A stretch of 43,322 nt of DNA from a virus. The translations under genes and the position numbers were made by a program. Where the stretch lies: positions 1-43,322 of the IMG/VR virus record IMGVR_UViG_3300023242_000348; one strand, 5' to 3'. Position 1 is the first letter of the stretch, and every line of letters begins with the position of its first letter. Positions 1,152 through 43,155 of the stretch are shown here, piece by piece. Below the pieces are notes generated by a model, which was not told where the DNA came from, searched no databases, and saw only the letters and a list, made by a program, of their open reading frames with translations.

Positions 1152-1313
1152 ATGAGCAACCTAGTACCTTTGTTATATCGTATTTGCACAGAGGATAAGT
1201 TTTGCACTATATATCATGTAGTGTTGGGTGATAAGATAAAAGAAAGCTTTGTTGAAGATTTTGCATCTGCTAACGCTTTAGTAAACAAGCTGAATGGGGA
1301 GATTAAGACATGA
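1152..1313 (+). CDS. Small hypothetical protein (53 aa)
   Basis: Starts MSNLVPLLYRICTED and ends LNGEIKT. The start follows an AGGAG-type ribosome site (ATAGGAGATTAAGAG) by a normal distance, and the stop overlaps the start of the lysozyme-like gene as ATGA, the coupling style used across this genome. No known domain is recognised. It is soluble and mixed-charge with no membrane segment. The overlap and ribosome site are the evidence that it is real. Confidence 0.6.
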   Translation: MSNLVPLLYRICTEDKFCTIYHVVLGDKIKESFVEDFASANALVNKLNGEIKT

Positions 1314-1801
1314 AGTATTCACAGGTCAAAGAGTACATTGTTATTCCTATACTAAAACAAATGTCTATTCCATATTCGGAGGAGGCTGTAGAACTTCTTC
1401 TTATGACATGTGCCCATGAGAGTAACGGAGGGGAATACATAAAACAGATAGAAGGCCCAGCTTTAGGGATATATCAAATGGAACCTGCTACACATGATGA
1501 TGTATGGAATAATTACTTGCAGTACAGACAAGAACTCTCCTTAGACGTGTACACAGCTCTCGGGAACACTAATGCTAATGCTGATTTGATGATAGGAAAT
1601 ATGTATTACGCTACAGCTATGGCTAGGATACATTACTGGAGAGTGAGCGAGGCACTCCCTAAGAGGTTCAATTACACAACAGAACGTAAATTCTTTGTAG
1701 CCCTTGCTCACTACTCCAAAACTTATTACAATACACACTTAGGGAAAGCAATCCCTGAGAAATACTTAACAGATTATTTAAGATGGAGGAATGCAGGATG
1801 A
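1310..1801 (+). CDS. Lysozyme / lytic-transglycosylase-like protein, candidate endolysin
   Basis: A 163-residue protein with a lysozyme-fold signature: CAHES near residue 36, whose Glu would be the catalytic acid, then GPALGIYQMEP about 12 residues later, matching the GxYQ element of transglycosylases, then helices with a late ALAHYSK segment. It probably cleaves peptidoglycan glycan strands during lysis. There is no signal peptide, so it would need a holin to reach the wall. Unusually it is on the plus strand with nucleotide-metabolism genes, while the holin candidate (2617-3063) is on the other strand. It overlaps both neighbours by ATGA. The family call is by motif only; a virion-entry or regulatory role is possible. 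Confidence 0.65.
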   Translation: MKYSQVKEYIVIPILKQMSIPYSEEAVELLLMTCAHESNGGEYIKQIEGPALGIYQMEPATHDDVWNNYLQYRQELSLDVYTALGNTNANADLMIGNMYYATAMARIHYWRVSEALPKRFNYTTERKFFVALAHYSKTYYNTHLGKAIPEKYLTDYLRWRNAG

Positions 1802-2616: not shown

Positions 2617-3063
2617 TTACTTTACTTTTGTAACACTCTTGTTTGCAAAGGGGTTCATAGCCCGGAACAAACGCATCAATCCAAATACTGATACAAATAT
2701 ACCTACTATAATAAACTCAAGCCACCAAGGTGTACTTGTGTAGCCCATCGCAGACCAGCCAGCCGCTAGTTTCTCAGGTACAAAGAAGTGAGCGCCTACT
2801 AACACGATAGTACATAAGATAAGTATCTCATCTGCTATCGTGTGTCGTTTCTCTAGTTGCGCCTGTTTATCATAATCTGAATCAGACACATCGCTTACTA
2901 ATGCTCGCTGTGCTTTACCTTCTAACTCTGCAATCTTAAAGGCTACCTCCGCTTTAGCTAAGAGATGCGCTCCTTCTTCCTTGAGATACTTACGTTTCTC
3001 GGTGCCTTCAATGTATGCTGTAACAGGGGCACTTAGGAAACCTATAACTGTATCAATCCACAT
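2617..3063 (-). CDS. Two-helix membrane protein, candidate holin
   Basis: A 148-residue protein with an N-terminal amphipathic stretch (MWIDTVIGFLSAPVTAYIEG), a charged helical middle of about 65 residues, and two hydrophobic segments near residues 80-96 (EILILCTIVLVGAHFFV) and 114-131 (WWLEFIIVGIFVSVFGLM), then a basic tail. The layout, with a soluble helix then two C-terminal membrane helices and short ends, fits several phage holin families. It is the last gene of the minus-strand late operon, where lysis genes often lie. A membrane-associated virion or superinfection protein is the alternative. Confidence 0.55.
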   Translation of the reverse strand: MWIDTVIGFLSAPVTAYIEGTEKRKYLKEEGAHLLAKAEVAFKIAELEGKAQRALVSDVSDSDYDKQAQLEKRHTIADEILILCTIVLVGAHFFVPEKLAAGWSAMGYTSTPWWLEFIIVGIFVSVFGLMRLFRAMNPFANKSVTKVK

Positions 3064-3064
3064 G

Positions 3065-3238
3065 TTACTTACCTTTGGGCACTTGGCCTACATTTAGAGC
3101 AAGTATATCTAAGAAGGGTTTTATTTTGTTAAAGATAGCATCGTCTTTCTTAGTAGGAGTAATAGCAACAATGGCACTAGCTACTGTTACTAAGGCAGTT
3201 AGAGTGTTAAGTATTAAAAATAAAGTATCTAAATTCAT
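3065..3238 (-). CDS. Small one-helix membrane protein (57 aa), lysis-cassette type
   Basis: Reads MNLDTLFLILNTLTALVTVA, then ASAIVAITPTKKDDAIFNK and a short amphipathic tail ending GQVPKGK. One N-terminal transmembrane helix is followed by the TPTKKDD turn and a short helix, a pattern I recognise from small proteins in other phages' lysis or tail-end cassettes. AAAAGGAAAC precedes the ATG by six bases. The stop ends one base before the start of the 148-residue membrane protein, implying translational coupling. It is a candidate second holin, antiholin or pinholin-type protein; none of these is proven. Confidence 0.72.
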   Translation of the reverse strand: MNLDTLFLILNTLTALVTVASAIVAITPTKKDDAIFNKIKPFLDILALNVGQVPKGK

Positions 3239-3265: not shown

Positions 3266-3700
3266 TTAATGAGAATACTTAAGTAAAGTGTGTTCTACTT
3301 TGTATCTAAACTTATCACATTCTTCTCTTATGTTTTTAGCAGTAGCCAAAAGACTAACTCTTGTGAGTAACTGCTGTATACCTATGGGCTTAGCTATATA
3401 ATCCGCAACACGTAAGTGGACTGAGCTAAGAACATCAGCTTTGTTTTCAGAGGCAGTCATAAATACAACCTCACTCTGAGAAGTGCTAGGGTTTTGTCTT
3501 AGTTGTTCACATAGCTTCAATCCACTTAGGTGTGGCATGTTTATAGCTAATAAGATAATAGTGGGATTAAATTCAATAGCGGCTTGTAACGCTAGTTGAC
3601 TATCAGAAACTATCTTGTATTCAATATCTGTGTGCGAGAGAGCCTCCCTAATAATAGCTAATTCAATCTCACTATCATCTACTACCAAAAGCTTTATCAT
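3266..3700 (-). CDS. CheY-like receiver domain lacking the phosphoacceptor Asp (pseudo-receiver)
   Basis: A stand-alone 144-residue response-regulator receiver. LLVVDDSE gives the acidic Mg-binding pair D8-D9, VVFMTAS gives the switch Thr T82, and YIAKPIG gives the invariant K104-P105. The phosphoacceptor position, in LLAINMPHLSG, is Ala52 (codon GCT on the coding strand) instead of Asp, so normal phosphotransfer cannot occur there. A helical extension of about 30 residues follows the domain; there is no output domain. Its ATG overlaps the stop of the membrane coiled-coil gene (3697-4011) as ATGA. It may act by binding a host histidine kinase, response regulator or the neighbouring membrane protein. 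Confidence 0.88.
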   Translation of the reverse strand: MIKLLVVDDSEIELAIIREALSHTDIEYKIVSDSQLALQAAIEFNPTIILLAINMPHLSGLKLCEQLRQNPSTSQSEVVFMTASENKADVLSSVHLRVADYIAKPIGIQQLLTRVSLLATAKNIREECDKFRYKVEHTLLKYSH

Positions 3701-4011
3701 TTGTTTCCCCTGTCAGTTATGTTTAAGCTTAAAGCGTTCAATTGACCATAGATTTTCTGTGTCATATCTAAGAAACTAGAATTGATAACTTTAAAGTCTT
3801 GTTTTAATTCACGTACCTCTTGTTCCAAGGTGATGATTCGTTGTTGCTGTACATCTACTACCTCTATTATTATTTCTTTTATCTTGTTCTCTGTAGGTAT
3901 TTCTTTTACTTTATTATTCAAGGAGACTACCCACGCGATAGCCCCCACAATAACTCCTATAACAGAACCTACTAGCATAATGGCCTCTAACTCTTGCCCT
4001 TCCAGTACCAT
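3697..4011 (-). CDS. Membrane-anchored coiled-coil protein (104 aa)
   Basis: An N-terminal membrane helix around residues 9-29 (AIMLVGSVIGVIVGAIAWVV) is followed by about 70 residues of heptad-like helix (IITLEQEVRELKQDF) ending in a polar tail. The single N-terminal anchor plus coiled coil resembles inner-membrane spanins or small phage membrane regulators. No lipobox partner was seen, so spanin is only one option. AAGAGGAAT precedes the ATG. It is first in the cassette that includes the pseudo-receiver, and its stop overlaps the receiver start, so the two are probably co-translated and may work together. A shared control motif lies just upstream (4026-4042). Confidence 0.65.
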   Translation of the reverse strand: MVLEGQELEAIMLVGSVIGVIVGAIAWVVSLNNKVKEIPTENKIKEIIIEVVDVQQQRIITLEQEVRELKQDFKVINSSFLDMTQKIYGQLNALSLNITDRGNK

Positions 4012-4057: not shown

Positions 4058-7000
4058 CTACTCTCCATACACTCTATTAAACGCTCTTAGTAGAGGCCCA
4101 AAGACTTCTCCTAGTTCGTAACGGCTATCAATAGGGAGCATTTTACCTGTGCTATCTTTGTTTTTCTCAAGTTTACTTATGTATTTAAAAGCAGAAAGAG
4201 CTTCTTCTCTTGTCCAACCCGCGTTCTTAATCTCTTGCATACGACTAATAATTCTATCATCAGCAGTTTCTCCTTCTTTCAAAGGTTCTTTCTTCTTATT
4301 AATTACACTTTGTTTCTTTAACATAGTAGAAAAACTTACATCATCTGGTGTTGCTTCCCCTTCTACTTCATCCTCTTCGGCAGGAGGAGAACTTCTTTGT
4401 AACTCCTCTAAAGGAACAATGTTCTGCTGCCCCAACAACATGTTCGTTATATTTTCATCTACTGACATTTTCGTAGGAGGTGCAAATCTTTCTTCTTGTT
4501 CAATAGTATCATCTACCTGAGATTCCCTATCTTCCCTAGCCATTTGTTCTAAGAAAGCAGCATCTTCTTCTTTACTAGGTTGCTCAGAAACATCTTTCAA
4601 CTCCGCTGATACCTCTGGTTTTACTGTAGTAGTTGCTTTGAATAAAAACTTCTCTTCAGAATTAGCTTGTTCTTCTAGTATAGCTTGGGCTTTCTCTTCT
4701 TCTCCTTCTTCTTTAAACTCTAAGTATCTTAAGTAGGAGTCTAAAGCATTAGTTCGTAGGCTGTTACCCGCATACATGTAGATAGAAATAGTCCTGAGTT
4801 TTCCCCTTGGACTCATATTTGATGCTTCTATTAACTCTAGTTTACCTAGGAAAGTAGGGTCAACCAAAGAATGAGCTATTATCTCTTTAGGTATCTTACT
4901 AGATAAAACATTCATTCCTTTTATAGATTGTATAGCAATACGTGTAGCGGAGTTAACTACAGCATACTCCATACTTATTATATTCTTGTGGGCTAGAGTT
5001 ATGTTGGAGAAAACCATAGGTAGGAAACCAAGTGCCTTATTAACTACCCCTTTCATACCAGTGGCTTCTTTACTATCTGCAGGTATCTTCTTCTTGCCTA
5101 CTCTAGATTTTAAATCACTAACTTTATTTGATACAGATATTAACCCTTCTATATTATTTATTAACTCAGGACCCCCGGGTAACATAGATATACCTTCTTT
5201 CAATATATTTAGTTTAGAAGCAGTACCTTCTACGTTAACCTCTCCTTTACTATTCATACTTATGATATCTTTACTAGCTATCTTAAGAAGCACAGGTGCC
5301 ATTAGACCTAAGGAACCTTGGGAAGCAGCCTCTGCTATAGATAATGTAGTATCATTAAGATTAGTAAGCATAGACAAAGCAGCGGCACCATCATCATTGG
5401 TAAGATTATATAAACTCTTATTGAATCCCTTCTTGTATCCTTCCTGAGATTCCATTAAGCCATTAACGATACTCATGATATCATTGTTATCTGTGGTCTT
5501 AACGAGTAAGTCTATTTTACTTTTTAACTTGCTGTCTTTCATATTCTTATAAGCTAGAGAAAAAAACTTATTATCCATTAAAGTAGCCACAACAGTAGAC
5601 ACATGTTTAACGGGGTCTTTATCCGTACCTACCATGTTTGCTATGTCACTAAAAGCATTCTCTACATACAGATGAACTACTGCATCATTTATAGTCTTAC
5701 CTTCCTTCTCAAGTATCCTATTTAAATCCTTATCAGAATCCATAAGTTTACCTAGGTTGTTCCTTACTACTATATCATTAAATCCATTCAATATATTATT
5801 AGGTGACGCACCAATAGTTTCTTTAAACTGTGAAACCATTTCGGGAGTAGACTCTACTTCCCCTAGTAAACGAGAGATGAAATTGGTGTAGGTACCATCC
5901 TTTTCTTTCTTAGTACCTTTACCTAACACACTATTCTTATCACTTCTTGCAGGTAGTATATCATTCTTAAATAAAGAATCTATCTGAGTCTTGAGAGTTT
6001 TCTTAGTTGTACCTCCTTCGCTAATTTTACTTAAGACCATATCTACATCTGCGTTTAACTCTGATATTATATTAGTCAAGGACATAAACCCTGCATAATC
6101 ACCAGCGGCTTTTAAATCCGACGCTCTCTTACTAAGCTTTGTTAACATTGACTGAGTTTGCTTATAAGGTAACTGTATCTTAGTAAGGTCAATCATAGGC
6201 AATACTTTATTAAACATAGTTAAACCTGCTTGTACAGTACTCTCATTCTTACTAAGTCTTACTGATTCTAATAGGGTATGAAAGATAGCCGCCTTAACCT
6301 TTGCGTTATCGTCTCTTGCATTCTTGTTCAAATCAATATCAAGGGCTACTTGCTTTTCCCCAAAGCGAATAGAGTTAAGACCGCCCTCATTAGTTATATC
6401 TGCCAATCCTCTCATGTCAATAGGAATCAAAGGTATATCTAAATCAAGTACTCCTTTAGGTGACTTTAAGTTAAACGCCTCTATAGTTACTACACCTGTC
6501 TTCGAGTCTGTAACATTCCTAACTGTAAAAGAAGGTAAAGTCTTCTTACTATTCTTACTATTCTTATTAGGCTTAGTAGGAGTAGCATTAGGGTCCACAG
6601 GGAACATGGTTCTGAATTGTTCCTGAGTTATATAAATAGTACTGCCTTTTATACTGTTAACATCAAAGTACTTAGGCAGCGGTGAATCAGGTAACGTATT
6701 AAATATATCGGGAACAGCAATATTATTTCCTGTTACAGAAGATTGTAGGTAAGTAAATAAGTTGTCCTTGTATTCTCTTGAAAGTATGTTACCTCCCTCT
6801 GATTTGGAAGTTAACTGAGTAACAACCGCATTCATCTTAGAAAGAACTTGAGGTATCTTTATAGAATTATTAGGGTCTACTTGGTTATACATAGTAGTTA
6901 AGTTATCTTTTATTCCTGTCATTACCGACTGAACACCTTCTCTAATAGAATTTAAAGAGGAGTTAGTAGTAGCTCCTGTAGGATTCATAGAGTTAAGTTG

Positions 7001-9034
7001 GATATAAGCAGATAGTTGATTCTGAGCTTGAGTAAGTAAGTCTCTTTGCTGTACGTCTATATCAGAAGATACCTTTATAGCGAGGGCCGCATAAGTACTT
7101 CTGTCTGTATCATTCAAGTCTTCTGATTTAAGTTTCTCATCTATAAAAGAAAGGTATCTTTCTCTTGTCTTTAGAACTTCTTCAGGGGTAATAGTAGCTT
7201 GTATATTTTGAAACTCAGAGTTATAGTTACCTTCATAAAAATCTAGTATATGAGTCTTAAACTCAGGGACACCTAAAGCGGCTGCAAATTCCTCTGCTTT
7301 AGTTATAGCCTTAACATACTCCGTATCTTTACTTAAGAAACCACTAACATTAGAAAGTAGATGAGCTGACCTACTATATTTATCATTAGTAGCAAAAGTA
7401 AGTAGGGTATCAATGGCTCTAGTTTTTTCTGAAGCATCCATATCCTCTTGTGCCAATATATCTAAAGCCCAGTCCTCTTGTCCATAGGTATCATTGTTCT
7501 CTTTGAACCATTCGTTTAAGGCTTCATTCCTTGTCATTTCAGGATTTCTTTCCATAGTTCTTTCTATGTACTTTATTTTACGAGTTTCCCTAGTTAGATT
7601 AATGGTATTTCTATGTATGAACTTACCTGCACTCGCAACTACACTAATGCTACTTATCTTATTAACTACAGTACCTGCAACTTCTAATGCTTTAGGAACA
7701 GCAACTGATATTCCTACATCTCCTAGTACATTAGCAAGTGCCTTCCCTTCTTTAGTTTCTATTCCTAGAATCTCTATTGCTTTAGGTAATAGCACAATTG
7801 AAGTCGCACCAGAGGCAGCTAGTTTTGTTGTATCTTTAGCTTGCTTTATAGAAGTAGCTTTTTTGGTTAACTGGAAAGGACTACTTACTTCTCTACCTAG
7901 AAACTTAGATGCTTCTTTAGTAGATAAAGTAACACCTCCTTTAACTAGGTTTCTTAGTAAGCTTGCCCCCCCTAAAACTAAAGTCTCACTTATAAAGTTC
8001 TTTAAAGCTACATCCCTTTTATAATCTTCAGTTAAGGTAACACCAAAGTTATCTAAAGCAGTCTGAGTTATCTTTTGCTCGAACTCTGCATCTACAGTAG
8101 TTCCATCTACAACAGGGTCTACTACGTTATCATAATATAAACCAGCTACAGCATAAAAAGGAGAAGCTAAAGTAGAGAGGATAGCAGACTCAGCTAAAGT
8201 ATCTTCCAACTCCCTATTCCATTGAACTATCCGTGCTAACGATTCATTCTCGGATTCGTCTACATACTGCTTACCTATTCGCCCTGCTATACCGGGGATA
8301 GAAGCTAGGTATTGAGGCAACGTAACCACACCTAATCCTATTTTAGTTACTTGGTTCTGAAGTGAATCATACTCTTCTCTCGCTCTCTCTAAAGAAGTTT
8401 CTTTATTAACAAGATAATTCATCTTTTCTTCTGGATTCAAAGCAGCATAAAAAGCTTCATCAGGAGACACTACCTTTTGTAATACAGGTGACATCCCTTC
8501 TTCATCTTCTTGTTCTGTTAGATAAGTAAGTTGCTTAGTTAATCCCTCAACTTCTTTAGTTCTTTGCTTATTTCTACTCTGTGAATTATTACCACTAAAG
8601 TACCTCTCGATAGTAGCGGCATCTATATCTTCGTATTCTTGTTCTTCTTCTAATTCCTGTGGTGTTACCCTTCCATTTGCAGCATAATCTATATTGTCTA
8701 CAGCATTTAGTGGTTCCGCATCTTCCTCTTCTACTTCGCGAGGGAACATATTAGTTTCTGAAGTATCTTCTATCTCTTTGCCCATAGGCTCTGGAGTATT
8801 AAGAGTGGCCTGTTCTAAAGTACTCACTGGTGTAGGAGAGGTTGCTTCTTCTTCTACAGGAGCATTACCTGAGTTAACTAAGGGTACTTGGGGTACTTGA
8901 GGTACTTGGGGTACTTGGGGTACTTGGGGTACTTGGAGTTCAGCGGGGGTAGGAGAAGCAACGCTAGCTATATTTAAAAGCTCGTCTTCGTCTTCCTCCT
9001 GAATACCAGTCATATTTAAAGTTGGAGATTGCAT
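4058..9034 (-). CDS. Giant internal virion / DNA-ejection protein (about 1658 aa)
   Basis: The largest gene in the window, at the distal end of the virion operon where T7-like phages keep their largest internal virion protein. ATG at 9034 is chosen; a TTG one codon upstream is possible, both served by AAGGAAT. The acidic N-terminus has a VPQ tripeptide run near residues 37-50, encoded by 9-bp DNA repeats. The rest is mostly long helices with a few hydrophobic stretches (residues 230-310) that might enter a membrane. I see no lysozyme, polymerase or protease motif. Assignment rests on size, composition and gene order. It is expected in the capsid core and ejected with the DNA. Confidence 0.7.
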   Translation of the reverse strand: MQSPTLNMTGIQEEDEDELLNIASVASPTPAELQVPQVPQVPQVPQVPQVPLVNSGNAPVEEEATSPTPVSTLEQATLNTPEPMGKEIEDTSETNMFPREVEEEDAEPLNAVDNIDYAANGRVTPQELEEEQEYEDIDAATIERYFSGNNSQSRNKQRTKEVEGLTKQLTYLTEQEDEEGMSPVLQKVVSPDEAFYAALNPEEKMNYLVNKETSLERAREEYDSLQNQVTKIGLGVVTLPQYLASIPGIAGRIGKQYVDESENESLARIVQWNRELEDTLAESAILSTLASPFYAVAGLYYDNVVDPVVDGTTVDAEFEQKITQTALDNFGVTLTEDYKRDVALKNFISETLVLGGASLLRNLVKGGVTLSTKEASKFLGREVSSPFQLTKKATSIKQAKDTTKLAASGATSIVLLPKAIEILGIETKEGKALANVLGDVGISVAVPKALEVAGTVVNKISSISVVASAGKFIHRNTINLTRETRKIKYIERTMERNPEMTRNEALNEWFKENNDTYGQEDWALDILAQEDMDASEKTRAIDTLLTFATNDKYSRSAHLLSNVSGFLSKDTEYVKAITKAEEFAAALGVPEFKTHILDFYEGNYNSEFQNIQATITPEEVLKTRERYLSFIDEKLKSEDLNDTDRSTYAALAIKVSSDIDVQQRDLLTQAQNQLSAYIQLNSMNPTGATTNSSLNSIREGVQSVMTGIKDNLTTMYNQVDPNNSIKIPQVLSKMNAVVTQLTSKSEGGNILSREYKDNLFTYLQSSVTGNNIAVPDIFNTLPDSPLPKYFDVNSIKGSTIYITQEQFRTMFPVDPNATPTKPNKNSKNSKKTLPSFTVRNVTDSKTGVVTIEAFNLKSPKGVLDLDIPLIPIDMRGLADITNEGGLNSIRFGEKQVALDIDLNKNARDDNAKVKAAIFHTLLESVRLSKNESTVQAGLTMFNKVLPMIDLTKIQLPYKQTQSMLTKLSKRASDLKAAGDYAGFMSLTNIISELNADVDMVLSKISEGGTTKKTLKTQIDSLFKNDILPARSDKNSVLGKGTKKEKDGTYTNFISRLLGEVESTPEMVSQFKETIGASPNNILNGFNDIVVRNNLGKLMDSDKDLNRILEKEGKTINDAVVHLYVENAFSDIANMVGTDKDPVKHVSTVVATLMDNKFFSLAYKNMKDSKLKSKIDLLVKTTDNNDIMSIVNGLMESQEGYKKGFNKSLYNLTNDDGAAALSMLTNLNDTTLSIAEAASQGSLGLMAPVLLKIASKDIISMNSKGEVNVEGTASKLNILKEGISMLPGGPELINNIEGLISVSNKVSDLKSRVGKKKIPADSKEATGMKGVVNKALGFLPMVFSNITLAHKNIISMEYAVVNSATRIAIQSIKGMNVLSSKIPKEIIAHSLVDPTFLGKLELIEASNMSPRGKLRTISIYMYAGNSLRTNALDSYLRYLEFKEEGEEEKAQAILEEQANSEEKFLFKATTTVKPEVSAELKDVSEQPSKEEDAAFLEQMAREDRESQVDDTIEQEERFAPPTKMSVDENITNMLLGQQNIVPLEELQRSSPPAEEDEVEGEATPDDVSFSTMLKKQSVINKKKEPLKEGETADDRIISRMQEIKNAGWTREEALSAFKYISKLEKNKDSTGKMLPIDSRYELGEVFGPLLRAFNRVYGE
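8884..8936. repeat. Nine-base tandem repeat encoding Val-Pro-Gln
   Basis: About six units of GGTACTTGG with one- or two-base variation. On the coding strand this gives repeated VPQ near the N-terminus of the giant virion protein. It is prone to slippage, so length may vary between relatives. Confidence 0.8.
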
Positions 9035-9047
9035 CAATTATTATTCC

Positions 9048-10931: not shown

Positions 10932-11765
10932 TTACTTCTCCTGTCTTATAGGTTGACCTTGAGGAACCATAGGTTGACCTTGAGGAACCATAGGTTGGCC
11001 CTCTGGCATCATAGGTTGACCTTGAGGAACCATAGGTTGGCCCTCTGGCATCATAGGTTGACCTTGAGGAACCATAGGTTGGCCCTCTGGCATCATAGGT
11101 TGACCTTGTGTTTTCATTGGTTGGCTTTCACTTTCCACTGAACCTACAGCTTTTTTTGCTCTTGCTAATAAACTCCTAGGTGCATTAGAGGGAGCCTGTA
11201 CATCATCTACAGTTAACTTCCCCTTCTCTTCTATATCTTGCTCCTCGTACTTCGCCATTAGGTCTCTGCTAGCTTGCTTATACATCTTAGTTTTAGAATC
11301 AGTTTCTTCATCGTCAGCCATATCATCTTCAGGATACAGAACAGGGTCGATGTCAGCATAAGTAGCTAAAGCAATCATAGTGTAGATAGTAGGTTCAATA
11401 GCTAACATAAGTAAATCAGCACTAATCTCACCTTTACTAAAAGAGTTCATTAAGTACTTCTCAGTTATATACTCTATAGGTATTCCCTTTCTTAAGGAAT
11501 CCAAGAGTAAAGGGAGTTTCTCTGGAGTAGTCATTGTTAAAAAGCTCTCCTCCAGGAACTCCTGTAAGTCTGTGTACTCTGCAGGTCTCTCATAAGGAGC
11601 AGGATTATCAGGGTTTTGCGTAAGAGACTGCCCTGGTATAGGAGCTGTTTCCATAACCTGCCCTAACTCCTTTGCTTCAGGACTACTCTCAGGTAACCTA
11701 GGACGTTTATAAGGAGTGGTACCTTCGTCACCTGCATATTTCTTTAGTTCTGCCATTATACTCAT
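10932..11765 (-). CDS. Putative virion protein with a Gln-Pro-Met repeat tail (277 aa)
   Basis: The first two thirds are acidic and helical; the C-terminus is a low-complexity tail built of units such as GQPMMPEGQPMVPQ. The repeats are encoded by a 42-bp DNA unit (10948-11105). The start overlaps the stop of the upstream gene by ATGA. The 140-220 segment is strongly charged (EDDMADDEETDSKTKMYKQ). A similar acidic protein with a disordered tail could be a core or scaffold-like component; no named family is recognised. Confidence 0.6.
   Translation of the reverse strand: MSIMAELKKYAGDEGTTPYKRPRLPESSPEAKELGQVMETAPIPGQSLTQNPDNPAPYERPAEYTDLQEFLEESFLTMTTPEKLPLLLDSLRKGIPIEYITEKYLMNSFSKGEISADLLMLAIEPTIYTMIALATYADIDPVLYPEDDMADDEETDSKTKMYKQASRDLMAKYEEQDIEEKGKLTVDDVQAPSNAPRSLLARAKKAVGSVESESQPMKTQGQPMMPEGQPMVPQGQPMMPEGQPMVPQGQPMMPEGQPMVPQGQPMVPQGQPIRQEK
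10948..11105. repeat. 42-bp tandem repeat in the tail of the 277-aa virion gene
   Basis: Alternating 21-base modules (ATAGGTTGACCTTGAGGAACC and a variant with GGCCCTCTGGCATC) repeat at least three times almost without change. They encode alternating QPMVPQG and QPMMPEG. Near-identity at DNA level points to recent expansion or gene conversion. Confidence 0.85.
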
Positions 11766-12917: not shown

Positions 12918-15900
12918 TTATCCTCCTACAAATTCGTTTACTTTCAAAATACCATCTAGGATATTACCTAAGGTATCACCTGCTACATTACCTAATGCAG
13001 TATCATTTGCTAGGACTGCAGCATCTAACATTGATTTACGATTCTTATCATTCTCACTCATGGTGAAGTTGTTGTTAGCTTCATCACGCATCTCTTGCCA
13101 TAACAAGGCAGTACCATTAGTCTTAAGGTTAAAAGCAGATAGAACGTTAGCAGCATTGACAGCGTTTTGACCCGCTGTTTCCGCTGTATTAATATTGCGT
13201 CTCCATGTAACATTAGATTGCTCTATTATGGAAGCGTTCTTAGCGTTAAAAGCAGCCCTCTCATTTTCAGCAGCAACATTAAAACGGACCATTGCATTAG
13301 CTTCTTGAGAGTTACGCGCATTAATCATGTTCCTCTCAGATACTCTTGCTCGCTCCATTGCATTAACTTCTGCTACATTCTGTAAGGATACTTTATTTAA
13401 CTCTAGAGCACGTAATGCATCTCTCTTGTTTTCTTCTGAACTGTTAGCAGAGTTTATTATGTTCTCTTGATTAGCAACAAACTCCTGTCTTTGGTTACTC
13501 GCTTGTGAATTAAGAACTGAGATTCTATTTTGCTCACTAGCAGTAAACTCACCACGTCTATTACTTGCTTCTATGTTAGCTAAGTTTATAGAGTTCTCTT
13601 GTGTATTGTTATATTCGCCTCTTCTGTTGTTCTCGGTTATATTCTGAGATTCCATTCGGTTTAATTCAGAAGCACTAAACTCACCACGTCTATTAGTGGC
13701 TGCTGCATTAGCTAAGTTTATAGAGTTCTCTTGATTACTATTGAACTCTCCTCGCCTATTACTCTCAGTTATATTCTGAGATTCCATTCGGTTTAATTCA
13801 GAAGCAGTAAATTCACCTCGTCGGTTCATCGCTTCGGTATTAGCTAAGTTTATGGAGTTCTCTTGAGTAGTATTAAACTCACCACGTCTATTACTTTCAG
13901 TAACATTCTGAGCTTCCATTTGGTTTAACTCAGAGGAACTAAATTCTCCTCTTCTGTTTATTGCCGCTGTATTAGCTAAGTTTATGGAGTTCGCTTGATT
14001 ACTATTGAACTCTCCTCGTCTATTACTTTCAGTAACATTCTGAGCTTCCATTCGATTTAACTCAGAAGCATTGAACTCTCTTTGTCTATTTATTGCTGCT
14101 GTATTAGATAAACCTACAGTGTTCTGCTGATTAATATTAAATTCATCACGTTGATTCTGAGCAGCTAGATTCTGAGAAGTCATACGATTCTCTTCCCCTA
14201 CGGAGAACTCAGTGCGTCTGTTAGTAGCCGCTGTATTAGCTAATCCAATAGTATTCTGCTGATTAATATTAAATTCAGCGCGTTGGTTTCTAGCCGCTAC
14301 ATTCTGTGCTTCCATTCTATTTCTTTCTTGGGCAGCAAACTCATTTCTTGTATTAATAGACTGAGCGTTAAACTGTGATATAGCATCCCTACGAGAAGCA
14401 TTACTCATGTCAACCTGAGCTGATAAGTTAGACATGAATTGATTCTTCTGGTTTATAGAAGTAGCATTAAACTGTCTACCCGCGTAATCTTGAGCAACAT
14501 CAGATAACATAACCTGTACTCTAGTTTGGTATGTTGTCTTTCTACTATCTTGCTTAAGAGTAGCATTCTGTTGAGCCATAGGCATTGCACTTTGTATAAT
14601 AGCATTGAATAGAGAATCCCTTCCAACACTAGAGGCGCTGATACCTCTTCCAGCTAACATTTGTTCTACCTTAGTTACAGCGGGTCTTGCCCACATGGGT
14701 ACGTTACCTTTGTCCATACCCTCTAATAAATCATTCATCTCGTCTGTCATAGAGGCAGCATTGAAAGGGTCAATTTTCTCTAGTTCATCAAGACCTTTCG
14801 ATACTGATTCCATATCAATAAGAGATGCTTCAAAGTCTTTAACAAGAACATCACTAGCTGCCTTAGCTAACTCAATAGCTTCTATAGGAGTAACCTTTCC
14901 TTGTGCAGCTTCTTCCGCTATCTTAGCAAGGGTTTGTGCTGCTAGACCTGCAGCTTTCGTTGTCCCTTGCGCAGCATCCCCTGCTAAAGAAGCTATTGTC
15001 TGGGAAGCTTCTCTTAGTTGTTTAGCTTCTCCTCTTGCTATATCTCCCGCTAGTTGCGCTTGGGTAGTACTAGCGTTTCCTAGCGAATCAGCAGTACCTT
15101 GAGCTGCAGTACCCGCTAGTTGCGCTTGGGTAGTACTAGCGTTTCCTAGCGAATCAGCAGTACCTTGAGCTGCAGTACCCGCTAGTTGCGCTTGGGTAGT
15201 ACTAGCGTTTCCTAGAGCATCAGTAGTACCTTGAGCTGCAGTGCCTGCTGTAGCGGCATTAGCTTGAGCTGCCTTTCCTATATTTAGCGCATTAGCTTGA
15301 GCTGCAGAGACTACGCTAGCTGCTTTTGTATTTGTTGTTTCCCCTAGAGGAGCAGCGTTACTTATCTCCGCTTCTCTTGTTTTAGTATTAGAAGCGTCCT
15401 TAGCACTCCCTTGCTGTGTTTGACCAAGAAAACCAACAGTAGGGTCAATATCCCCAGCTTCTATTTCTTCCTTACTCATACTCTGGTATTCTTGCTTTAA
15501 CTTGTTATCCTCTAGGTACTGCCCAGGGCTATTCATTGACTCATCAACAAGTCTTCTAGCTTCAGCTTCTCTAGTTTCAGCAGCAGTAGGACCTAAGGGA
15601 GTCGGAGGTACTAAAGTACTAGGTTCTAAATCCGCTTCAGGTTCTCTTGAGACATCCTCTGTACCTGTGCTTACCCTTAATCTTCTTTTGTAATCATTCC
15701 CCATGTTCCCTTTAGTATTATAAATAGGAGGTTCATCGAGAACCTCAAGAGGCTGTCTATTAGGGTTACTGGAACTATTGTTAGGAGTAGCCCCTGTTGA
15801 AGCATAGAATCTATCGCTATCTCTATTTGTATTAGTTACGGGTTCTCTTCCGTTGTAATTACTTACAGGCTGCTGTATAATTCCTCCTTCTATAGTGTCC

Positions 15901-15980
15901 TTGGTATTTTTAAGGATTGTCCCTGTTTCTGAAAGGTTAAAAGGAACCTGTGGCTCTCCAAATCTTTTAGGCTTGTACAT
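12918..15980 (-). CDS. Long repetitive alpha-helical virion protein (1020 aa)
   Basis: Three parts. Residues 1-200 are polar and disordered-looking. Residues about 230-365 hold 22-residue units such as TAAQGTADSLGNASTTQAQL. Residues about 530-880 hold at least 15 further 22-residue units that alternate two types, roughly RRGEFNSNQENSINLANTAA and RRGEFSASELNRMEAQNVTE. A 22-residue period equals two hendecads, a pattern of long right-handed or straight coiled coils, so a long rod or helical bundle is likely. No enzyme motif. It lies among the tail and internal virion genes; a trans-envelope conduit or elongated fibre/core protein is possible. Confidence 0.6.
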   Translation of the reverse strand: MYKPKRFGEPQVPFNLSETGTILKNTKDTIEGGIIQQPVSNYNGREPVTNTNRDSDRFYASTGATPNNSSSNPNRQPLEVLDEPPIYNTKGNMGNDYKRRLRVSTGTEDVSREPEADLEPSTLVPPTPLGPTAAETREAEARRLVDESMNSPGQYLEDNKLKQEYQSMSKEEIEAGDIDPTVGFLGQTQQGSAKDASNTKTREAEISNAAPLGETTNTKAASVVSAAQANALNIGKAAQANAATAGTAAQGTTDALGNASTTQAQLAGTAAQGTADSLGNASTTQAQLAGTAAQGTADSLGNASTTQAQLAGDIARGEAKQLREASQTIASLAGDAAQGTTKAAGLAAQTLAKIAEEAAQGKVTPIEAIELAKAASDVLVKDFEASLIDMESVSKGLDELEKIDPFNAASMTDEMNDLLEGMDKGNVPMWARPAVTKVEQMLAGRGISASSVGRDSLFNAIIQSAMPMAQQNATLKQDSRKTTYQTRVQVMLSDVAQDYAGRQFNATSINQKNQFMSNLSAQVDMSNASRRDAISQFNAQSINTRNEFAAQERNRMEAQNVAARNQRAEFNINQQNTIGLANTAATNRRTEFSVGEENRMTSQNLAAQNQRDEFNINQQNTVGLSNTAAINRQREFNASELNRMEAQNVTESNRRGEFNSNQANSINLANTAAINRRGEFSSSELNQMEAQNVTESNRRGEFNTTQENSINLANTEAMNRRGEFTASELNRMESQNITESNRRGEFNSNQENSINLANAAATNRRGEFSASELNRMESQNITENNRRGEYNNTQENSINLANIEASNRRGEFTASEQNRISVLNSQASNQRQEFVANQENIINSANSSEENKRDALRALELNKVSLQNVAEVNAMERARVSERNMINARNSQEANAMVRFNVAAENERAAFNAKNASIIEQSNVTWRRNINTAETAGQNAVNAANVLSAFNLKTNGTALLWQEMRDEANNNFTMSENDKNRKSMLDAAVLANDTALGNVAGDTLGNILDGILKVNEFVGG
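13392..14390. repeat. Coding repeats: 66-bp (two alternating types, 132-bp super-unit)
   Basis: DNA encoding the 22-residue units of the 1020-residue protein. Neighbouring units of the same type share long stretches, such as TTAGCTAAGTTTATAGAGTT and its variants, at about 132-base spacing. Confidence 0.75.
15046..15243. repeat. Three 66-bp near-perfect tandem repeats
   Basis: Units start at 15046, 15112 and 15178, each beginning CCCGCTAGTTGCGCTTGGGT. The first two are identical and the third differs by a few bases near its end. They encode AAQGTADSLGNASTTQAQLAG-type units in the 1020-residue virion protein and look recently expanded. Confidence 0.9.
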
Positions 15981-42129: not shown

Positions 42130-43155
42130 ATGAAACTAGCAATAATAATAGGCAACTTCCAACCTTTACACAATGGTCATGTTACCCTTATAAACAAAGC
42201 AGTAGAAGATAATGATAGAGTCTTGATTCTAATAGCAGGTATCAACAAGTTACCTAATTACGTTAGACCTTTTAGTTTTCAAGATAGAAAGGTTCTTATG
42301 GAGAAAGTAATCCAGAGTAATAAGTTAGATATCCGAGGGTTACCTGACTCCCCTACTAAAGAAGAGTGGGTATCTAATGTTATAGCCCATCAATGTAGTA
42401 TCGAAGAAGACCCTACCCATGTAACTCTATACACGAGTGAGAAAGAGAGAGACTTTTACTCTGAGGCACTATTGTATACCGTGGAAACAGTAGATGAACT
42501 ACCTATAAACTCAGTTGACATAAGAAACTTGTTTTACGCTGCATCCTCTGATTTAAAAATACTTTCTTCGCTAGTACCCAAGGATACATTATCTTTCCTA
42601 GGTGACATAGAAGTAGGGGAGTTGTGGAGATTATCACAAGAGAAAACAAAGTGTGAAGAGTTATCCTTAAGTAAGAGACAAGAACATTCACATAACAATT
42701 CCATAGAACCTGTAGCACACGCTATTATAGTTCAGAACCAGAAAGTATTAACAGTAATACGTAAGTCTGTTAGAGGGTATGGACAAAGAGCATTAGTAGG
42801 AGGTTACATAGATTACAAAGAAGAATCTATGGGCGCTGCCATGCGAGAAGCACTAGAAGAAACAGGGGTAGACTTGATAGACTTAAGTAAACAAGGAAAA
42901 TGCAAGTGCCTTGTTAGGTCCATAGAAGAAAACCTTAGTGATATAGGCTCCCGCACACTTGGTATTAATTACCTGTTCATTATCAAAGAAGACTTAGAGT
43001 TAAAAATAGTACCTTGTCCTAAAGAAACACTAGGTTATGAGTGGGTAGTCTTAGACGATATACTTAGGGAGAAAGAGCTATTGTTCTTTAATCATAACTT
43101 AGTAGTACAGAGGGTGTACAGTATGTTAAGCTCTAATGCGACAACAAAAAAGTAA
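42130..43155 (+). CDS. Bifunctional NMN adenylyltransferase / Nudix hydrolase (341 aa)
   Basis: Makes NAD from nicotinamide mononucleotide and ATP. The N-terminal domain has GNFQPLHNGH (8-17) with the HxGH nucleotidyl-transfer motif and INSVDIR (126-132), the ISSTxxR-like motif. The C-terminal Nudix domain has a complete GX5EX7REUXEEXGU box: G225, E231, R239, E240, E243, E244, G246; it probably cleaves ADP-ribose or a related product. The same architecture occurs in NadM-Nudix enzymes and the phage NatV type (KVP40). In a phage it can refill host NAD, including NAD removed by defence systems. AGGAGATACCA gives the start. Confidence 0.9.
   Translation: MKLAIIIGNFQPLHNGHVTLINKAVEDNDRVLILIAGINKLPNYVRPFSFQDRKVLMEKVIQSNKLDIRGLPDSPTKEEWVSNVIAHQCSIEEDPTHVTLYTSEKERDFYSEALLYTVETVDELPINSVDIRNLFYAASSDLKILSSLVPKDTLSFLGDIEVGELWRLSQEKTKCEELSLSKRQEHSHNNSIEPVAHAIIVQNQKVLTVIRKSVRGYGQRALVGGYIDYKEESMGAAMREALEETGVDLIDLSKQGKCKCLVRSIEENLSDIGSRTLGINYLFIIKEDLELKIVPCPKETLGYEWVVLDDILREKELLFFNHNLVVQRVYSMLSSNATTKK

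Follow-up and report, generated by a model that had tools for sequence, protein, structure and literature searches.

A stand-alone receiver lacking its phosphoacceptor aspartate in a phage lysis-like cassette, and aspartate-bearing receivers in Alteromonas phage lysis cassettes

The window, that is, the whole 43,322-nucleotide stretch of marine phage DNA analysed here (IMG/VR record IMGVR_UViG_3300023242_000348), encodes in a lysis-like cassette a stand-alone CheY-like receiver in which alanine occupies the phosphoacceptor position, and receivers of this stand-alone kind turn up again in lysis cassettes of Alteromonas phages, in five groups unrelated to one another. Our preferred reading, to which we give a probability of roughly 45%, is that the window protein is a lysis-cassette receiver that works near the membrane through contact with another protein and independently of phosphorylation. 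The time of lysis in most phages is usually ascribed to holin accumulation, and few inputs from the physiology of the host are known. The recurrence of a receiver in the lysis cassettes of five groups makes it a candidate for such an input, and one that can be tested in the cultured phages R8W, H4/4, R9Y, PT11-V22 and PT15-A5. The window variant is in this respect a natural counterpart of the Asp-to-Ala substitution with which an experimenter would probe the importance of phosphorylation. The receiver module of lysis cassettes appears to be undescribed in the open-access papers searched, in which we found no description of a lysis role for phage receivers; subscription literature lay outside the search.

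The 144-residue reading frame of the receiver, which starts with ATG and is preceded 6 nt upstream by AGGGG, is not a chance one, as Pfam, PHROG and the AlphaFold2 model agree. It matches PF00072 (Response_reg) over residues 5–115 with E = 1.3e-20, its 74 bits exceeding the gathering score of 30, and PHROG receiver families with E-values down to 3.8e-22. An AlphaFold2 model computed from 34 sequences of the window and other loci has the (beta-alpha)5 receiver fold that the earlier note had supposed from the letters, with a mean pLDDT of 94.9. In this model, the final 36 residues prolong alpha-5, which runs as a single helix from 108 to 143. The closest solved structures found by Foldseek were PleD and other receivers, including RR468; among the top ten matches were 6rh1 and 6rh8, in which the Thermotoga maritima kinase HK853 is bound to the D53A mutant of RR468.

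The active-site residues that the earlier note had read in this protein are all present in the translation: the Mg-binding DD pair (D8 and D9), T82 and K104, together with P105. Further signature positions of receivers are also kept, namely P56 (D+4), G60 (D+8), A83 (T+1) and Y101 (K-3). At position 52, the GCT codon likewise stands as noted before, one base away from the GAT of aspartate (Table 1). The protein thus has the profile, fold, DD pair, Thr and Lys of PF00072 but lacks the phosphoacceptor, and by sequence it is an aspartate-less receiver (ALR). ALRs are a described class that makes up ~4% of receivers (PMC4395418, PMC12632262), and 9% of their substitutions are to Ala (PMC4395418). 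Unlike such known cases, the window receiver is phage-encoded, carries no effector domain, has an otherwise complete active site and lies in a putative lysis cassette.

Table 1. Positions of the window features discussed in the text and of stand-alone receivers in other loci (TM, transmembrane segment).
Feature	Sequence	Positions	Strand	Basis or context
Likely endolysin, phrog_3108 (4e-42)	Window	1310–1801	+	Same family as annotated PT15-A5 endolysin (phrog_3108, 1.7e-28)
148-aa 2-TM protein, phrog_2524, holin candidate	Window	2617–3063	-	PHROG; tblastn 2e-7; alignment
57-aa one-TM protein, phrog_9685 (E 1.6e-9), between receiver and 2-TM gene	Window	3065–3238	-	ORF; PHROG
Stand-alone CheY-like receiver domain protein, 144 aa, Ala52 at phosphoacceptor	Window	3266–3700	-	ORF; Pfam; AlphaFold2; Foldseek
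Codon GCT, Ala52 at phosphoacceptor position (Asp = GAT)	Window	3545–3547 (+ strand numbering)	gene on -	Sequence; Asp in relatives
104-aa one-TM coiled-coil protein, TM residues 11–29, stop overlapping receiver start (ATGA)	Window	3697–4011	-	ORF; hydropathy/charge; AlphaFold2
Stand-alone receiver	L001	5001–5462		Lysis cassette
Stand-alone receiver	L002	6001–6453		Lysis cassette
Stand-alone receiver	L124	2044–2457		Lysis cassette
Stand-alone receiver	L126	2501–2950		Lysis cassette
Stand-alone receiver	L128	3001–3444		Lysis cassette
Stand-alone receiver	L130	4001–4450		Lysis cassette
Stand-alone receiver	L131	4001–4444		Lysis cassette

The ATGA overlap with the gene of a 104-residue membrane coiled-coil protein, also pointed out earlier, is real. 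Positive charges past the TM of this protein predict an N-out, C-in topology (hydropathy and charge count), and AlphaFold2 places helices at 3–32 and 41–103 with a pLDDT of 68. The 148-residue 2-TM protein shares phrog_2524 with gp45 of the Foturvirus H4/4, whose gene immediately follows that of the receiver there, with E-values of 3.8e-8 and 1.9e-29; its identity with GTA_holin_3TM was considered and rejected, the comparison giving no support. The gene at 1310–1801, whose product has no Pfam match, is likely the endolysin of the window phage, lying on the opposite strand about 1.5 kb from the receiver and convergent to the lysis-like cassette. No Rz was identified near the window receiver, and PADLOC returned no defence match.

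Using tblastn against annotated phages, we found the best credible matches of the receiver in Alteromonas phages; many further matches in records labelled as 'Listeria', 'Salmonella' and 'Acinetobacter' phages were left out, being judged likely host DNA. A scan of genome contigs returned bacterial receivers, mostly as parts of larger proteins. The five Alteromonas phage groups are Foturvirus (H4/4 and R8W), the R9Y siphoviruses, XX1924/PB15, the myovirus PT11-V22 and the schitovirus PT15-A5; for Alteromonas phages, the earlier note's view of such receivers as rare is not borne out. Their receivers consist of the receiver domain only (132–153 aa), and each is encoded after a membrane coiled-coil gene, with genes for Rz/Rz1 spanins, holins or endolysins next to it. 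The notion of a lysis-like cassette in the window is partly borne out by these findings, since the same kind of gene sits in genuine lysis cassettes of other phages and phrog_2524 is shared with H4/4.

In H4/4 and R8W, a class II holin is followed by a one-TM coiled coil, the receiver and the phrog_2524 protein. The receivers of these two phages (gp44 and gp48, respectively) resemble that of the window in their identity (31–36%), their C-terminal tail, the ATGA overlap with a one-TM coiled-coil gene and the phrog_2524 gene next to them, but they carry Asp, come from phages of the Autographiviridae and have the holin gene upstream of the coiled-coil gene. In the R9Y siphoviruses (vB_AmaS-R9Y1-3), the gene of a one-TM coiled coil overlaps that of the receiver by ATGA, and the receiver gene in turn overlaps that of a GH108 lysozyme; this receiver, 35% identical to that of the window and likewise near a lysis enzyme, differs in its Asp and in the type of phage. 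XX1924 and PB15 encode a coiled coil with a C-terminal TM, the receiver, a DUF5675 or M15 endolysin and a GTA_holin_3TM holin.

PT11-V22 (ORF30) and PT15-A5 (a CheY-like protein) likewise have a stand-alone receiver after a one-TM coiled coil, followed by an Rz-like spanin and a 2-TM holin-like protein, and in PT15-A5 by an endolysin of the family found in the window; unlike the window receiver, theirs carry Asp, and identity is ~18–24%. Two IMG/VR contigs (L130 and L131) repeat this order, L131 with an endolysin, and in both a second ORF bearing a lipobox is nested in or overlaps Rz, as expected for Rz1.

As in this grouping, which is our own, the window receiver comes directly after a one-TM coiled-coil gene. 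The coiled coil of the partner proteins is predicted to be cytoplasmic from hydropathy and charge, whichever end bears the TM. Because the coiled-coil sequences show no significant similarity (window partner against the others, hhalign probability 0.7%), the correspondence of the partners is one of architecture and position; sequence homology of the window coiled coil with the others found no support in this figure, nor in a C-terminal motif that was matched in 217 of 1000 shuffles. A membrane coiled coil beside a holin recalls the XhlA/XhlB-type pair of haemolysin-like coiled coil and holin, and the XX1924 partner belongs to phrog_937 ('hemolysin'). The window coiled coil differs from XhlA in bearing its TM at the other end, and we know of no receiver in XhlA systems.

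Asp stands at the equivalent of position 52 in all 11 relative receivers read, namely those of H4/4, R8W, R9Y2, L023, L027, XX1924, PB15, PT11-V22 and PT15-A5 (alignment A12) and those of L130 and L131; of the R9Y1 receiver, only its match of 47% to H4/4 gp44 was observed. Among the best 96 places in the loci tested, the phosphoacceptor position is Asp in 93, Val in one and Ala in two, one of which is the window. Given these counts, Asp is most likely ancestral and would have been lost on the lineage of the window. The survey of position 52 in related phages proposed by the earlier note thus returned Asp throughout, an outcome that the note had named as refuting and that counts in part against its reading. 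The window receiver is, however, only 18–36% identical to these relatives, which therefore indicate the likely ancestral state but are no proof of a recent mutation or an error. The only other Ala case seen is an Oligoflexia receiver (L080, 6001–6393) that keeps the DD pair, Ser, Tyr and Lys.

The retention of the other active-site residues (Mg-binding pair, Thr, Lys, Tyr and a small residue at T+1) points to a recent loss or to a geometry that is still needed, since in about 80% of pseudo-receivers from bacteria the second residue of the DD pair is non-acidic (PMC12632262). The window receiver departs from the consensus at 6 of 34 family-conserved positions, and its most distant relatives do so at 5 of 36; besides Ala52, the departures concern G25, D47, E62, P77 and a hydrophobic residue at 121. 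Excess decay was considered as proof of an old pseudo-receiver and set aside, as this difference is only mild.

In a tree of 82 receivers, those of phages are set apart from the others by a single branch (91/81; 94% of bootstraps), and the receivers nearest to that of the window by path are phage receivers. In a smaller tree to which PT11-V22, PT15-A5 and L130 were added, the phage clade was not recovered (14–18% of bootstraps). Judged from these trees, a single origin of the phage receivers and repeated capture from hosts are equally possible; if capture was repeated, the recurring position in the cassette would be all the more telling.

Under the preferred reading, the receiver with its extended alpha-5 would dock on either the coiled-coil anchor or the holin-like protein as its membrane partner, and docking would bias the timing of membrane permeabilisation. 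In the relatives, phosphorylation by a host kinase or by acetyl phosphate could switch this contact. In the window phage, Ala52 would remove the phosphate switch and fix the protein in one state, leaving the contact to be set by protein level alone. Against this reading stand the fact that Ala52 is peculiar to the window's record, a single metagenomic sequence, the place of the endolysin candidate on the other strand, the lack of significant sequence similarity between the window coiled coil and the other partners, and the disagreement of the two trees on a single origin. The cassettes with intact Asp suggest a link between host signalling and the time of lysis in these Alteromonas phages. More speculatively, and we hold this stronger version to be doubtful, the receiver could be a phosphorylation-gated clock in phages of Alteromonas and relatives, in which host two-component signalling or acetyl phosphate advances or delays holin triggering through the membrane-anchored coiled coil; the window phage would then have escaped host control by removing the phosphoacceptor.

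The alternative that survives best, although unlikely, is a recent private loss: either a receiver otherwise competent for phosphorylation would have acquired a mutation of neutral or slightly harmful effect, or the metagenomic assembly would contain a wrong base. The single-base distance between the two codons, the otherwise intact active site, the Asp of all relatives and the occurrence of Ala52 in one sequence only agree with it, as does the finding that a DNA pattern around codon 52 with its second base left free retrieved the exact surroundings in no other viral contig. Assembly errors, however, are rare per base, and the five further departures, slightly above those of the relatives, indicate that the protein may have drifted under altered constraint.

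Rather improbable is a decoy, in which the Ala receiver would bind a host histidine kinase, accept no phosphate and so block the signal to the host response regulator by dominant-negative capture. All of the kinase-docking geometry is kept, and in the HK853/RR468 D53A complex an Ala receiver is still bound by its kinase (PMC7005713). A precedent exists in PIT4 of Pseudomonas phage LSL4, a phage protein that acts on host two-component systems by binding several host kinase domains and is encoded outside lysis cassettes (PMC10714779). On the other hand, a local partner is more to be expected for a protein whose gene lies in a lysis-like cassette and is translationally coupled to that of a membrane protein, and the relatives keep an Asp that a decoy would not need. 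Moreover, PIT4 is reported to be an early gene, while lysis cassettes are usually late.

We regard with similar scepticism the idea that the fold serves purely as a structural adaptor for the assembly or stability of the coiled-coil membrane protein, with no signalling in the window phage. The loss of Asp from an intact fold and the extended alpha-5 helix would suit such a role, and a parallel exists in the FrzS pseudo-receiver of Myxococcus, which acts through protein contact and likewise carries Ala in place of the phosphoacceptor (PMC4395418, PMC12632262); the retention of D8, D9, T82 and K104 would nevertheless be left unexplained.

An auxiliary regulator without a lysis role, such as the PhoB-like transcriptional effect proposed for R8W gp48, published as the auxiliary metabolic gene PhoB (PMC8228385), is very unlikely, since these receiver-only proteins have no DNA-binding domain and the gene recurs in the lysis cassettes of unrelated phages. 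The PhoB model is matched over the first 118 of its 226 positions, far under its cut-off. This holds for H4/4 gp44, 92% identical to R8W gp48, and for the window protein (63 bits, cut-off 296), both matching in the receiver part and lacking the C-terminal winged-helix DNA-binding domain. Annotations of the Alteromonas phage receivers vary between DNA-binding response regulator, hybrid histidine kinase (the deposited label of the receiver-only PT11-V22 gene), CheY-like and hypothetical; the published PhoB and hybrid kinase labels are corrected here to receiver-only.

The terminase of the window is closest to that of Pseudoalteromonas phage Slicky01 (45%), then Vibrio phage CHOED (37%); as these phages measure ~65 kb, the window is probably a partial genome. 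No receiver match was found in 15 IMG/VR records with terminases 56–63% identical (~62%), most of them fragments, and the receiver is absent from those of their lysis cassettes that could be read. Nor did the window receiver, scanned on its own against viral contigs, retrieve a relative. The 148-residue 2-TM gene was found at six places in the window's phage group, with 53–69% identity. In the window, the order is coiled coil, receiver, 57-residue one-TM gene and 2-TM gene. In two members of the group that have no receiver (L031 and L035), a one-TM protein directly precedes the phrog_2524 gene, and the window receiver therefore looks like an extra gene added between an existing pair of membrane proteins. 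In L030, a one-TM coiled coil comes after the giant protein, with three other genes in between.

Upstream of the lysis-like genes, the window encodes a 1659-residue protein (4058–9037, minus strand) that bears a tract of VPQ repeats close to the N terminus; it shares only 22–29% identity with its L035 counterpart, compared with 59% for the downstream 2-TM gene. Two proteins of the structural region, of 1020 residues (12918–15980, minus strand) and 277 residues (10932–11765, minus strand), contain many internal repeats (NRRGEF... and QGQPM.P...). Finally, the 341-residue product of 42130–43155 (plus strand) reads by eye as a fusion of NMN adenylyltransferase and Nudix domains (NadM/NatV-like).
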